Position numbers and translations under genes: made by a program
From: Flavobacteriales bacterium
GTDB lineage: Bacteria > Bacteroidota > Bacteroidia > Flavobacteriales_F > PHOS-HE28
Assembly: GCA_013360395.1 (NCBI GenBank)
Contig: JABWBQ010000011.1
Span: 1 to 61,984, forward strand
Direction of reading: 5' to 3'
Length of the DNA stretch: 61,984 bases
Notes under the pieces: generated by a model
What the model was told of the DNA's origin: nothing
Database searches by the model: none
The model's input: the letters and a program-made list of their open reading frames with translations, nothing else
Part shown: one piece after another, positions 48,147-50,919 of the stretch
Layout of the letters: each line of letters opens with the position of its first letter
Position numbering within the stretch: position 1 is the stretch's first letter

Positions 48147-48992
48147 ATGACCAGGATCGTGAACGTCGGCCCCATCGCGTGCGGCAGCGATGACCTCTTC
48201 CTCATCAGCGGCCCGTGCGTGATCGAGACCGAGGATGTGATGCTGCGCACCGCCGAAAAGCTCAAGGAGGTGAGCGAGCGCCTGAAGGTGCCCGTGATCT
48301 ACAAGAGCAGCTTCACCAAGGACAACCGCAGCAGCGCCGACTTCTACCAAGGCCCCGGCCTGGAGGAAGGGCTGAAGGTGCTGGCCCGCATCAAGAAGGA
48401 TTTCGGTTTTCCCATCCTCACCGACATCCACTACCCCAGCCAGGCCAAGCCCGCCGCCGAGGTGGTGGACGTGCTGCAGATCCCGGCCTACCTGGTGATG
48501 CAGACCACCCTGGTGACCGAAGCCGCGAAGACCGGTGCGGTGATCAACCTGAAGCACGCGCAATTCCTCGCACCGGAGAACATGATCAACCCGGCGAAGA
48601 AGTGCGAGAGCGTGGGCAACGGCAAGGTGATCCTCACGGAGCGTGGCTACACCTTCGGCTACAACGACCTGGTGGTGGACCCGCGCGCCTTCTACCACAT
48701 GCGCCGCACGGGCTACCCGCTGGTGTTCGACATCACCCACAGCATCCGTAAGTACGGCATCCCCAGCGCCGACCCGCGCGGCGGCAACCGCGATGTGATG
48801 CCCACCATCGCCCGGGCCGGTGTGGCCGCCGGTGTGGACGGTGTGTTCATCGAAACGCACCCCGACCCGAGCAAGGCCCTGTGCGACGCCGCCAGCCAGC
48901 TCTGCGTGTACGACCTGGAGGAATTCCTCAAGCCCCTTCTGGAGATCCACGCCGTGGAAGTGAAGCACCGCAACATGAGCGGGATCGCTTGA
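48147..48992 (+). CDS. kdsA: 3-deoxy-8-phosphooctulonate synthase (Kdo-8-P synthase)
   Basis: A 281-aa enzyme that condenses phosphoenolpyruvate with D-arabinose-5-phosphate to Kdo-8-phosphate. Canonical motifs: FLISGPCVIE, YKSSFTKDNRSS, ILTDIHYPSQAKPAAEVVDVLQIPA, INLKHAQFLAPENM, LTERGYTFGYNDLVVD and DITHSIRKYG. Length and motifs match classical KdsA. It heads a cluster with an aldolase-CBS fusion and a KdsC-like phosphatase. The requirement for arabinose-5-phosphate is central to reading the next gene. Confidence 0.95.
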   Translation: MTRIVNVGPIACGSDDLFLISGPCVIETEDVMLRTAEKLKEVSERLKVPVIYKSSFTKDNRSSADFYQGPGLEEGLKVLARIKKDFGFPILTDIHYPSQAKPAAEVVDVLQIPAYLVMQTTLVTEAAKTGAVINLKHAQFLAPENMINPAKKCESVGNGKVILTERGYTFGYNDLVVDPRAFYHMRRTGYPLVFDITHSIRKYGIPSADPRGGNRDVMPTIARAGVAAGVDGVFIETHPDPSKALCDAASQLCVYDLEEFLKPLLEIHAVEVKHRNMSGIA

Positions 48993-48999
48993 TGCCCCT

Positions 49000-49099
49000 C
49001 CACAGAGGCACAGTGAACACAGAGAACACAATACCAAGACCAAACAACGACCAGCAGAAGCAGTCCGGCATTTTCCCTGTGCCCTCTGTGCCTCTGTGG
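49000..49099. repeat. Palindromic intergenic repeat (CACAGAGGCACAG type)
   Basis: A perfect 14-bp inverted repeat, CCACAGAGGCACAG (49000-49013) and CTGTGCCTCTGTGG (49086-49099), encloses 72 nt. The enclosed sequence is AC-rich on the left (CAGTGAACACAGAGAACAC) and its near-complement on the right (CCCTGTGCCCTCTGTG). The composition differs sharply from the genes around it. I recognise this sequence type as a widespread intergenic repeat whose translation gives spurious TTEAQRAQ-like peptides. It fills the whole gap between kdsA and the next gene. Confidence 0.85.
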
Positions 49100-49113: not shown

Positions 49114-50136
49114 ATGGAACTCTACCTCGACAGCGCCGACATCAAGGAGATCGACGAAGCCTTCAAACTCGGCTTCCTCACCGGCCTCACCACCACGCCT
49201 ACCTTCATGCACCGCGGCGGCGTCACGGACATCGACAAGATGATCCTGGACCTGGCCAAAAAGGTGCCCATCCTGCAAGTGGAGGCCCTGGGCGAGACCG
49301 CCGAGGAAGTGGTGAAGGAGGCCAAGCGCCAGCTGAAGATGGGCTTGAAGAAGGACGCCACCGTCTTCAAGATCCCCGTGAGCCTGGAGGGTCTCCGTGC
49401 ATGCAGGATGCTGCGCAACGAGGGCATCATGGTGAACGTGCACCTGGTGTACACCATCCAGCAGGCCTACATGGCCATGCAGGCCGGTGCCAACTACGTG
49501 TGCCCGCTGGTGGGCCGCCTGCAGGACCAGGGCCACGACGCCCTCGCCCTCGTGGAGCAGTGCGTACGTGCGGTGAACTACTACGGCTACGACACCAAGA
49601 TCATGTTCAGCAGTGTGCGCACCGTGGAACATGTACGCAACGCGGTGGAGATCGGTGTGCACACCATCACCGTGCCCTGGAAGCTGATGAAGCAGCTCAC
49701 CGACAACCACTTCACGGCCATCGGCACCAAGCAGTTCTACGTGGACACGCGGCTGATCACCATGAAGGTGAAGGACATCCTGCCCCACAACAACCCCGTG
49801 GTGAAGGACAGCAAGACCGTGAGCGAAGCCTTGGTGGAAATGACCAAGCACGGCTTCGGTGCCGTGATGGTGGTGGATGCCAAGGGCAGGAACCTGGGCG
49901 TGTTCACCGATGGCGGCCTGCGCCGCGGGCTGGAGAAGGAGGGCAACAAGTTCCTCACCAAGAAGCTGAGCACCTTGAAGTTCAACGCACCCTTCACCAT
50001 TTCGCCGGAAGCCTTGCTGGACGAGGCCCAGAAGGCGTTCAAGGAGCATAAGGTGGACACGTTGAGCGTGAGCGAGAACGGCAAGCAGCTCGGCATGCTC
50101 GACATCCAGGACCTGATCAAGGCGATCTCGGGGTAG
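49114..50136 (+). CDS. Transaldolase/F6P-aldolase-like domain fused to KdsD-type CBS pair
   Basis: A 340-aa fusion. Residues 1-220 form a class I aldolase barrel of the transaldolase/FSA family: MELYLDSAD (Asp6), GLTTTPT, ILQVEA (Gln55), ATVFKIPVSLEG with the Schiff-base Lys86, and CPLVGRLQDQG. Compared with E. coli FSA, Asn28 is Thr, Thr109 is His110 and Tyr131 is Leu132, so the active site is altered. Residues 224-340 are two CBS domains; the first contains GVFTDGGLRR and the second GMLDIQDLIKAI, as in KdsD. It lies exactly where kdsD is expected. The ATG at 49114 matches the FSA start; the in-frame ATG at 49096 falls in the repeat. Confidence 0.85.
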   Translation: MELYLDSADIKEIDEAFKLGFLTGLTTTPTFMHRGGVTDIDKMILDLAKKVPILQVEALGETAEEVVKEAKRQLKMGLKKDATVFKIPVSLEGLRACRMLRNEGIMVNVHLVYTIQQAYMAMQAGANYVCPLVGRLQDQGHDALALVEQCVRAVNYYGYDTKIMFSSVRTVEHVRNAVEIGVHTITVPWKLMKQLTDNHFTAIGTKQFYVDTRLITMKVKDILPHNNPVVKDSKTVSEALVEMTKHGFGAVMVVDAKGRNLGVFTDGGLRRGLEKEGNKFLTKKLSTLKFNAPFTISPEALLDEAQKAFKEHKVDTLSVSENGKQLGMLDIQDLIKAISG

Positions 50137-50155: not shown

Positions 50156-50236
50156 ACGTTGCGTGTTGGCGTGTTACGTGTTGCGGGTTGGATCAAACCG
50201 CAACACGTAACGCGTAACCCTCACAACACGCAACGT
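50156..50236. repeat. Nested palindromic repeat (ACGTTGCGTGTTG type)
   Basis: Two stems are nested: outer arms ACGTTGCGTGTTG (50156-50168) and CAACACGCAACGT (50224-50236), 13 bp perfect; inner arms GTTACGTGTTGCGG (50173-50186) and CCGCAACACGTAAC (50198-50211), 14 bp perfect, loop 11 nt. The arms are themselves built from related CGTGTTGCG/CGTGTTACG units. It fills the gap between the aldolase-CBS gene and the phosphatase gene and ends just before the latter's ATG, so it would form a cruciform or a long mRNA hairpin. Confidence 0.88.
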
Positions 50237-50241
50237 ATTCC

Positions 50242-50919
50242 ATGTCCCACTTGACACCTTTCACCAGCCACGGCCTCCGCACCACGGCCCCGGAACCCGA
50301 GCTCCTGCGCCGGCTGGCCCGCATCAAAGCCGTGCTCTTCGATTGGGACGGTGTGTTCAACGATGGCTTCAAGGACGCGGAGGGCGGCAGCCCCTTCAGC
50401 GAGGTGGGCAGCATGGGCGTGAACCTGTTGCGGTTCGCACTGTGGCTGCGGAACGGCGCCCTGCCCAAGGCGGCGATCATCACCGGCCAGCACAACCCCT
50501 ACGCGGAACGCTTCGCCCAGCGGGAGAAGTTGCACGGTGTGTACATGGGATTCACCAACAAGCCCGAGGCCTTCGATGCCTTCCTGAAGCAGCACGATCT
50601 AAAGGCCGACGAGGTAGCGTTCTTCTTCGATGATGTGCTGGACCTGCCCGTGGCCGCCCGCTGCGGACTGCGTGTGATGATCGGCGGTCCCGTGACGACG
50701 TGGCTCGTGGAGCAGGCCATTGCACGCGGGGAAGTGGATCTTGTGACGGCGAACGGCGGTGGTGCCAACGGGCTGCGCGAGGCCACCGATGCGGTGATGG
50801 TCCTGCTGGGCGTGGGCCGCGACGTGCTGGCACACCGGACCGGATACACCGGGACCTACCAGCGTTACCTGGCCGAGCGGCAGGCGGTGGTGCCGGAGGT
50901 GGTGCGGCACGCACGCTGA
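50242..50919 (+). CDS. kdsC: KdsC-like HAD phosphatase
   Basis: A 225-aa HAD hydrolase of the KdsC type, expected to remove phosphate from Kdo-8-P. Motifs: LFDWDGVFNDG (Asp34 nucleophile, Asp36 acid; DWDG in place of the usual DVDG), AIITGQ (motif II) and FFFDDVLDLPVAARCG (motif IV). A C-terminal GGGANGLREATDAVM resembles the KdsC GG-GA-RE segment. It has no cap domain, which fits the tetrameric KdsC subfamily. It is more divergent than the neighbouring KdsA, so a related sugar-acid phosphate is possible. Confidence 0.78.
   Translation: MSHLTPFTSHGLRTTAPEPELLRRLARIKAVLFDWDGVFNDGFKDAEGGSPFSEVGSMGVNLLRFALWLRNGALPKAAIITGQHNPYAERFAQREKLHGVYMGFTNKPEAFDAFLKQHDLKADEVAFFFDDVLDLPVAARCGLRVMIGGPVTTWLVEQAIARGEVDLVTANGGGANGLREATDAVMVLLGVGRDVLAHRTGYTGTYQRYLAERQAVVPEVVRHAR

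Follow-up and report, generated by a model that had tools for sequence, protein, structure and literature searches.

Gene organization at the locus

The window, by which we mean the whole stretch of 61,984 nucleotides from a Flavobacteriales genome that was analysed, carries a gene for a protein of 340 amino acids in which a barrel of the transaldolase/FSA type is fused to a pair of CBS domains. This gene is flanked by kdsA on the upstream side and by a gene for a KdsC-like phosphatase on the downstream side (Table 1). It is a real reading frame, and the Pfam and NCBIfam matches bear out the first-pass annotation, which had described an aldolase-type barrel and a CBS pair within one gene between these two neighbours. 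The upstream gene matches the Kdo8P synthase model TIGR01362 with 333.8 bits (cut-off 314). The phosphatase matches the KdsC profile with 54 bits, far under the cut-off of 208, and no Pfam match above cut-off was found for it; judged by its sequence, it is to be seen as a divergent KdsC subtype that travels with the module. Both intergenic gaps of the operon (49000-49099 and 50156-50236) contain long inverted repeats, with 27-nt arms (CCACAGAGGCACAG.../...CTCTGTGCCTCTGTGG) and a 21-nt near-palindrome (CGTGTTACGTGTTGCGGGTTG), which are possibly small mobile or REP-like elements.

Table 1. Features of the kdsA-fusion-kdsC region, with positions in the window.
Feature	Position	Strand	Basis
kdsA, subtype named KdsA-a (KDNRSS, Met120, His139, Arg205-Lys206-Tyr207; E. 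coli numbering)	48147..48992	+	TIGR01362
Transaldolase-CBS fusion, 340 aa, proposed A5P-supplying enzyme in place of KdsD	49114..50136	+	ORF, profiles, neighbours, model
TAL_FSA barrel, residues 1-201	49114..49716	+	PF00923, E 4e-37; fold match 3s0c
Glu57 codon (equivalent to TalB Glu96 and FSA Gln59), invariant	49282..49284	+	Alignments
Lys86 codon (Schiff-base lysine of the family), invariant	49369..49371	+	Alignments
His110 codon, invariant in fusions; Thr in all compared transaldolases/FSA	49441..49443	+	Alignments
CBS pair, residues 219-337, most like the KdsD/KpsF pair	49768..50124	+	Pfam, NCBIfam, 4o9k, fold comparison
Divergent KdsC-like HAD phosphatase	50242..50919	+	KdsC profile, E 1.3e-14; conserved neighbour

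The formation of D-arabinose-5-phosphate (A5P) is the entry to Kdo, an LPS sugar needed in most Gram-negative bacteria, and to our knowledge the SIS isomerase KdsD with its paralogues is the sole established bacterial route to A5P. The host assembly comprises 3.68 Mb in 139 contigs and is 99.85% complete, and all genome-wide statements refer to searches of its contigs. A search for an SIS-domain KdsD, as the first-pass annotation had called for, detected no SIS-CBS KdsD in this genome; the useful scores against the KdsD/KpsF models came from CBS parts only, with the fusion scoring best. The SIS proteins of the host are GlmS, a bifunctional PGI/PMI, MurQ and GmhA, each of which exceeds the threshold of one or more curated models bearing its name. 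Single copies of KdsA, KdsB and WaaA are also encoded, as is a KdnA homologue (G000:C103:11019-12203), so that the Kdo pathway of the host looks complete save for KdsD. An ordinary TalC-type transaldolase is found on contig C56, away from the fusion, so the housekeeping transaldolase is not the fusion.

The barrel domain

The N-terminal half belongs to family PF00923 (TAL_FSA; residues 3-201, 128.6 bits against a cut-off of 27), and no SIS domain was found in this half by Pfam. Confidence is high in the AlphaFold2 models (mean pLDDT 90 and 90.5), and the barrel superimposes on the short-type transaldolase 3s0c with Z 28.3 and an rmsd of 2.0 over 215 aligned residues. Sequence identity amounts to 31-36% with transaldolases of the TalC/MipB type and to about 27% with FSA of E. 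coli, and the FSA model TIGR00875 gives 165.5 bits, which is under its cut-off of 245.95. The barrel had previously been described as transaldolase/FSA-type. This stands, with the correction that the protein is nearer to TalC/MipB than to FSA; at position 57 it has the Glu of transaldolases and not the Gln of FSA. In a tree with transaldolases the fusion family forms a single clade with 100/100 support and a very long stem, and such a stem fits the expectation for a changed function.

The CBS pair

Pfam places two CBS domains from residue 219 onwards (E 1.8e-15). The top NCBIfam scores of this half come from the kpsF/GutQ/KdsD models, which align over their CBS part alone; for the kpsF model this concerns model positions 153-267 only. 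The closest solved CBS pair by sequence is 4o9k, from the A5P isomerase of Methylococcus capsulatus (E 7.8e-15), a structure apparently solved with CMP-Kdo, which is taken only as a lead. When a CBS-only model was compared with known folds, the CBS pairs of A5P isomerases (3k2v, 4o9k and 3fna) came first with Z 17.4-17.9, a lead that lies within a tie with other CBS pairs at up to 17.1. The KdsD-type CBS pair that had been proposed for the C-terminus is thus corroborated by the NCBIfam scores and by 4o9k, and by fold only as a tie. In a tree of CBS pairs the fusion and the KdsD pairs grouped apart from two other CBS pairs, both of which are too distant to settle descent.

Spread of the fusion and conservation of gene order

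Within the genus of the host, 27 of 31 genomes carry the fusion as an intact single gene, three carry pieces of it on separate contigs, and one (G311) is without it. A species-level genome scan recovered 80 fusion loci with 64-97% identity, nearly all of them in labelled Bacteroidota groups; cultured hosts among them are Thermoflexibacter ruber, Raineya orbicola and Chryseolinea serpens. Plasmid records returned solely ordinary FSA/TAL relatives, none of which covered 80% of the fusion query. The kdsA gene lies immediately upstream of the fusion in 61 of the 75 loci usable for this purpose (an adjacent kdsA is not shown in the other 14), so that the kdsA-adjacent aldolase-CBS fusions whose survey in Bacteroidota had been suggested do indeed recur; of the 74 loci usable on the other side, 62 have a kdsC-like gene downstream, and the loci represent many lineages of Bacteroidota. 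In these genomes the fusion gene is probably annotated merely as a transaldolase.

The same stretch also contains kdnA/kdnB and/or kdsB at 20 of the 80 loci, and the fullest cassette reads kdnA-kdnB-kdsA-fusion-kdsC-kdsB (L098, L100, L113 and L119). KdnA homologues were identified via the Kdo8N transaminase 5k8b (E 6.6e-128) and KdnB homologues via the Kdo 8-oxidase 5k8c (E 1.2e-127). KdnA occurs in most of the fusion genomes tested, with G292, G299 and G327 among the few without it, and it was detected in none of six control genomes that had an ordinary KdsA or no KdsA.

The exceptional member of the genus, G311, consists of 9 contigs, is rated 100% complete and is without kdsA, fusion and KdsD, which is either due to a gap in the assembly at the operon or genuinely puzzling. 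A joint loss of fusion and kdsA was considered for this genome and set aside, as KdsB, WaaA and KdnA are kept and the whole block may fall into an assembly gap; G311 is therefore left out of the argument.

Mutual exclusion with KdsD

The same 296 genomes of a phylum sample were searched for the fusion, KdsD/KpsF and KdsA, with E < 1e-40 as the threshold for calling KdsD. The fusion is present in five of the 219 kdsA-positive genomes, and KdsD is found in none of these five; KdsD occurs in 210 of the 214 genomes without the fusion, being missing from G023, G200, G268 and G284. The association between the fusion and the absence of KdsD (5/5 versus 4/214) gives p = 3e-8 in a Fisher test, which overstates independence since the genomes are related by descent. 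The five KdsD-free fusion genomes come from four families, f1, f3 (two genera), f9 and f11; in the last three of these, KdsD is present in other genomes of the sample. In a second set of 69 fusion genomes KdsD is absent from 64; the fusion and KdsD occur together in the remaining five, three of which (G353, G356 and G365) carry an additional kdsA that does not lie beside the fusion. Among the cultured hosts, Chryseolinea serpens has KdsD as well, whereas Thermoflexibacter ruber and Raineya orbicola have the fusion alone. As to the anticorrelation with kdsD that the first-pass annotation had proposed to survey, the fusion and KdsD largely exclude each other. A canonical kdsD elsewhere in the genome, combined with a lack of co-occurrence of fusion and kdsA, was also looked for as a contrary pattern and did not hold.

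It is highly improbable that A5P is supplied by another enzyme, for example by the isomerase domain of GlmS, by GmhA or by PGI/PMI, and that the fusion has another task, for instance in regulation. The genes for GlmS, GmhA and PGI/PMI are widespread and would not explain why KdsD is lacking mainly where the fusion occurs, and the operon position and the strictly conserved catalytic-type site of the fusion would be left unexplained. What speaks for such a supply is that all three enzymes are present in the host and that human GFAT isomerises ribulose-5-phosphate to A5P, GFAT genes being able to rescue an E. coli deficient in A5P isomerase (PMC11301363).

Two genomes of the same class, G230 and G238 (family f12), have an ordinary KdsA and only a weaker KdsD match with E about 1e-45, which may stem from a KdsD that has no CBS pair.

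The partner KdsA and a genome with the exchange

The KdsA encoded beside the fusion differs from ordinary KdsA by Asp61 (Ala), Met120 (Arg), His139 (Lys) and Arg205-Lys206-Tyr207 (Gln-x-x) in 68 of 68 cases (E. coli numbering). The KANRS motif and the Arg120/Gln205 of ordinary KdsA, the latter two of which we take to have roles in A5P binding, are replaced in this subtype, KdsA-a, by KDNRS, Met120 and Arg205. Altogether at least six positions in or near the substrate site are changed in KdsA-a, both in the window (48147-48992) and at loci L043-L122 and L216.

In the phylum sample KdsA-a occurs in exactly six genomes, namely the five fusion genomes and G249. The latter is a single contig of 7 Mb that lacks the fusion; its single KdsA retains all KdsA-a residues, its operon reads kdnA-kdnB-kdsA-kdsC-kdsB with the fusion gene missing between kdsA and kdsC, and a canonical SIS-CBS KdsD of 315 aa is encoded outside the operon. 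As G249 combines KdsA-a with KdsD and no fusion, KdsA-a evidently works with A5P made by KdsD, and the operon without the fusion, with KdsD elsewhere, suggests that the fusion represents the same A5P supply. This exchange is the most direct comparative test at hand, yet it is a conclusion from one genome.

Judged by the altered substrate site of the partner KdsA, the aldose could differ from A5P. The module would then make another aldose phosphate, and hence another ulosonic acid, to which KdsA-a would be adapted. The strictness with which the subtype accompanies the fusion (68/68) would fit with this, as would the three genomes with a second kdsA, which hold both KdsD and the fusion, and no genome was seen that combines the fusion with ordinary KdsA alone. 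However, the pairing of KdsA-a with the fusion can be explained by operon linkage alone, the operons contain homologues of KdnA and KdnB, enzymes for which the structurally solved relatives use Kdo itself as a substrate, and ordinary KdsB and WaaA follow. In G249, moreover, the only KdsA is KdsA-a, complete in its subtype residues, and KdsD occurs there with no fusion. We therefore consider a different aldose improbable, and the KdsA-a subtype was set aside as a proof of a different sugar on account of G249.

A probable role of the fusion in A5P supply

Based on the kdsA-fusion-kdsC linkage, the exclusion of KdsD and the exchange in G249, the fusion is likely, at roughly three chances in four, a non-orthologous replacement of KdsD that supplies A5P to the adjoining KdsA. 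This agrees with the proposal of the first-pass annotation that the protein takes the place of KdsD and most likely feeds A5P to KdsA, to which the absence of KdsD from the host and the KdsD-like CBS half add support. Against this role count the five fusion genomes that also have KdsD, the altered substrate site of the partner KdsA, and the 14 of 75 usable loci for which an adjacent kdsA is not shown.

Active site and possible chemistry

For the comparison of active sites, the fusions were aligned with 26 transaldolases of Bacteroidota, and the aligned residues are given the roles usual in the transaldolase and FSA families. Invariant in 79 fusions are D6, T26, T27, T28, Q55, E57, K86, N108, H110, L132, R135, Q137, D138, S166, S167 and R169, and C130 is present in 78 of the 79. 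The residues that had been highlighted earlier, Lys86, Thr28 (Asn28 in FSA), His110 (Thr109) and Leu132 (Tyr131), are found at the expected positions and are all among the invariant ones. Relative to the 26 transaldolases, the fusion has kept Lys86, Asp6, Glu57, Asn108 and the phosphate ligands Arg135, Ser167 and Arg169; the substitutions are N28T, T110H, S130C, F132L and D137Q. The donor-site set of transaldolases (Asn28, Thr110, Ser130 and Phe132) is thereby replaced throughout, and the FSA markers Gln59 and Tyr131 are replaced as well, by Glu57 and Leu132. The kept phosphate ligands together with the changes N28T, T110H, S130C and F132L suggest that the phosphate end of the site is retained and the carbonyl (donor) end is remodelled, as would be expected for a substrate with the same phosphate end and a different carbonyl end. 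Residue by residue, the active site is best classified as transaldolase-like and not FSA-like. A5P does fit the transaldolase fold, as 3upb is a solved transaldolase in which A5P is covalently held and as A5P inhibits transaldolase according to work cited in PMC7895386.

An FSA-type aldol reaction had been put forward earlier, in which glycolaldehyde as the donor, bound on Lys86, would react with glyceraldehyde-3-phosphate to yield A5P, which is F6P minus C1. E. coli FsaA and FsaB are indeed reported to prefer glycolaldehyde as the donor and to make A5P with glyceraldehyde-3-phosphate as the acceptor (PMC6298115), Lys86 and Asp6 are kept, and the altered contacts to the C1-hydroxymethyl group (N28T, S130C) would suit an aldehyde donor. 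Against this weigh Glu57 and Leu132 in the positions of Gln59 and Tyr131, the score under the cut-off of the FSA model, and the fact that glycolaldehyde is no bulk metabolite and that no source of it is encoded in the operon; in addition, A5P is a covalent adduct in 3upb and an inhibitor of transaldolase (cited in PMC7895386). We consider this route unlikely even when the A5P role is granted, and still less likely overall.

A further possibility is a transaldolase with a new donor, in which D-glycero-D-ido-octulose-8-phosphate would give its dihydroxyacetone to glyceraldehyde-3-phosphate, forming F6P and releasing A5P. This would be the chemistry of the parent family, with which the transaldolase-like Glu57 is consistent, and C4-C8 of the octulose have the D-arabino configuration by our own derivation. 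The octulose-8-phosphate is made by transketolase, and the transaldolase-like LmbR acts on it in lincomycin synthesis (PMC5854111). But Asn28, Ser130 and Thr110, which are invariant in the 26 transaldolases and are the expected holders of dihydroxyacetone and water, are all replaced in the fusion, which makes this route quite improbable if the A5P role is correct and very improbable overall.

Given the A5P role, we favour a direct isomerisation of ribulose-5-phosphate via an enediol over the FSA-type aldol route, with a likelihood that, seen from the aligned residues, falls just short of even. In this isomerisation, the phosphate of ribulose-5-phosphate would be gripped by Arg135, Ser167 and Arg169, the ligands kept from transaldolase. 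Glu57 and His110 would shuttle a proton between C1 and C2, and Lys86 would polarise the carbonyl, so that Lys, His and Glu would be combined much as in triose-phosphate isomerase. Feedback would probably come through the CBS pair, which would sense a product further down the pathway (CMP-Kdo or CMP-8-amino-Kdo). An enediol isomerisation is a reaction that would use an abundant substrate and explain the new invariant histidine as well as the changed donor end. We know of no precedent for it in the transaldolase/FSA family, and the retained Schiff-base lysine and Asp6 point to aldol chemistry rather than to isomerisation. The isomerisation through a Schiff base that had been suggested earlier is disfavoured as it was worded, since a 1,2-shift from a Schiff base formed at C1 of A5P would end in an Amadori-type product that stays attached to the lysine.

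Taken together, a transaldolase barrel may have turned into a true isomerase of ribulose-5-phosphate to A5P with a Lys/His/Glu set resembling the one in triose-phosphate isomerase, may have been joined to a KdsD-type CBS regulator, and may have replaced KdsD in many Bacteroidota along with a re-engineered KdsA, mainly for an LPS with 8-amino-Kdo. As a whole, this picture is tentative.

Relation to known systems

With the SIS isomerases KdsD, KpsF and GutQ, the fusion has in common the C-terminal CBS pair, the association with kdsA and, genome by genome, the same gap in the pathway; the difference is that it has no SIS domain and that an unrelated (beta/alpha)8 barrel forms its catalytic half. 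This barrel it shares with the TalC/MipB transaldolases (3s0c of T. acidophilum and 3r8r of B. subtilis; Z 28), including Asp6, Glu57, Lys86, Asn108, Arg135, Ser167 and Arg169, but it is set apart from them by N28T, T110H, S130C, F132L and D137Q, by its own 100/100 clade and by the added CBS pair, and the host has a separate TalC. FSA (E. coli FsaA, 1l6w) has the fold and the Schiff-base lysine in common with the fusion, which differs by Glu57 for Gln59, Leu132 for Tyr131, His110 for Thr109 and Thr28 for Asn28 and by its score under the FSA cut-off. LmbR of lincomycin synthesis, which we compared by description, is likewise a member of the transaldolase family recruited into a dedicated sugar-phosphate pathway; in contrast to the fusion, it makes octulose-8-phosphate.

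A literature search among open-licence papers yielded no report of this fusion protein, though it may have been described elsewhere. If the proposed role is correct, the fusion would be a new A5P-forming enzyme under any of the three chemistries; as a replacement that is widespread and built on an unrelated fold, it would close a gap in the pathway of many Bacteroidota. It would also be a case in which the regulatory domain was kept while the catalytic domain was exchanged. As far as the sequences indicate, it is also new that a distinct subtype of KdsA partners the fusion and that the cassette often comes with kdnA/kdnB, the genes for 8-amino-Kdo.

The latter connects the fusion to the Kdo8N pathway of Shewanella (KdnA/KdnB), since kdnA/kdnB homologues are found in many fusion operons and KdnA in the host genome. 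The A5P step of the Shewanella pathway is presumably the ordinary one, whereas in the fusion cassettes the A5P gene would be the fusion. The kdnA/kdnB linkage points to 8-amino-Kdo in many environmental Bacteroidota, and kdnA together with kdnB is widespread among Bacteroidota with KdsA-a, for example at L098, L100, L113, L119 and L216.
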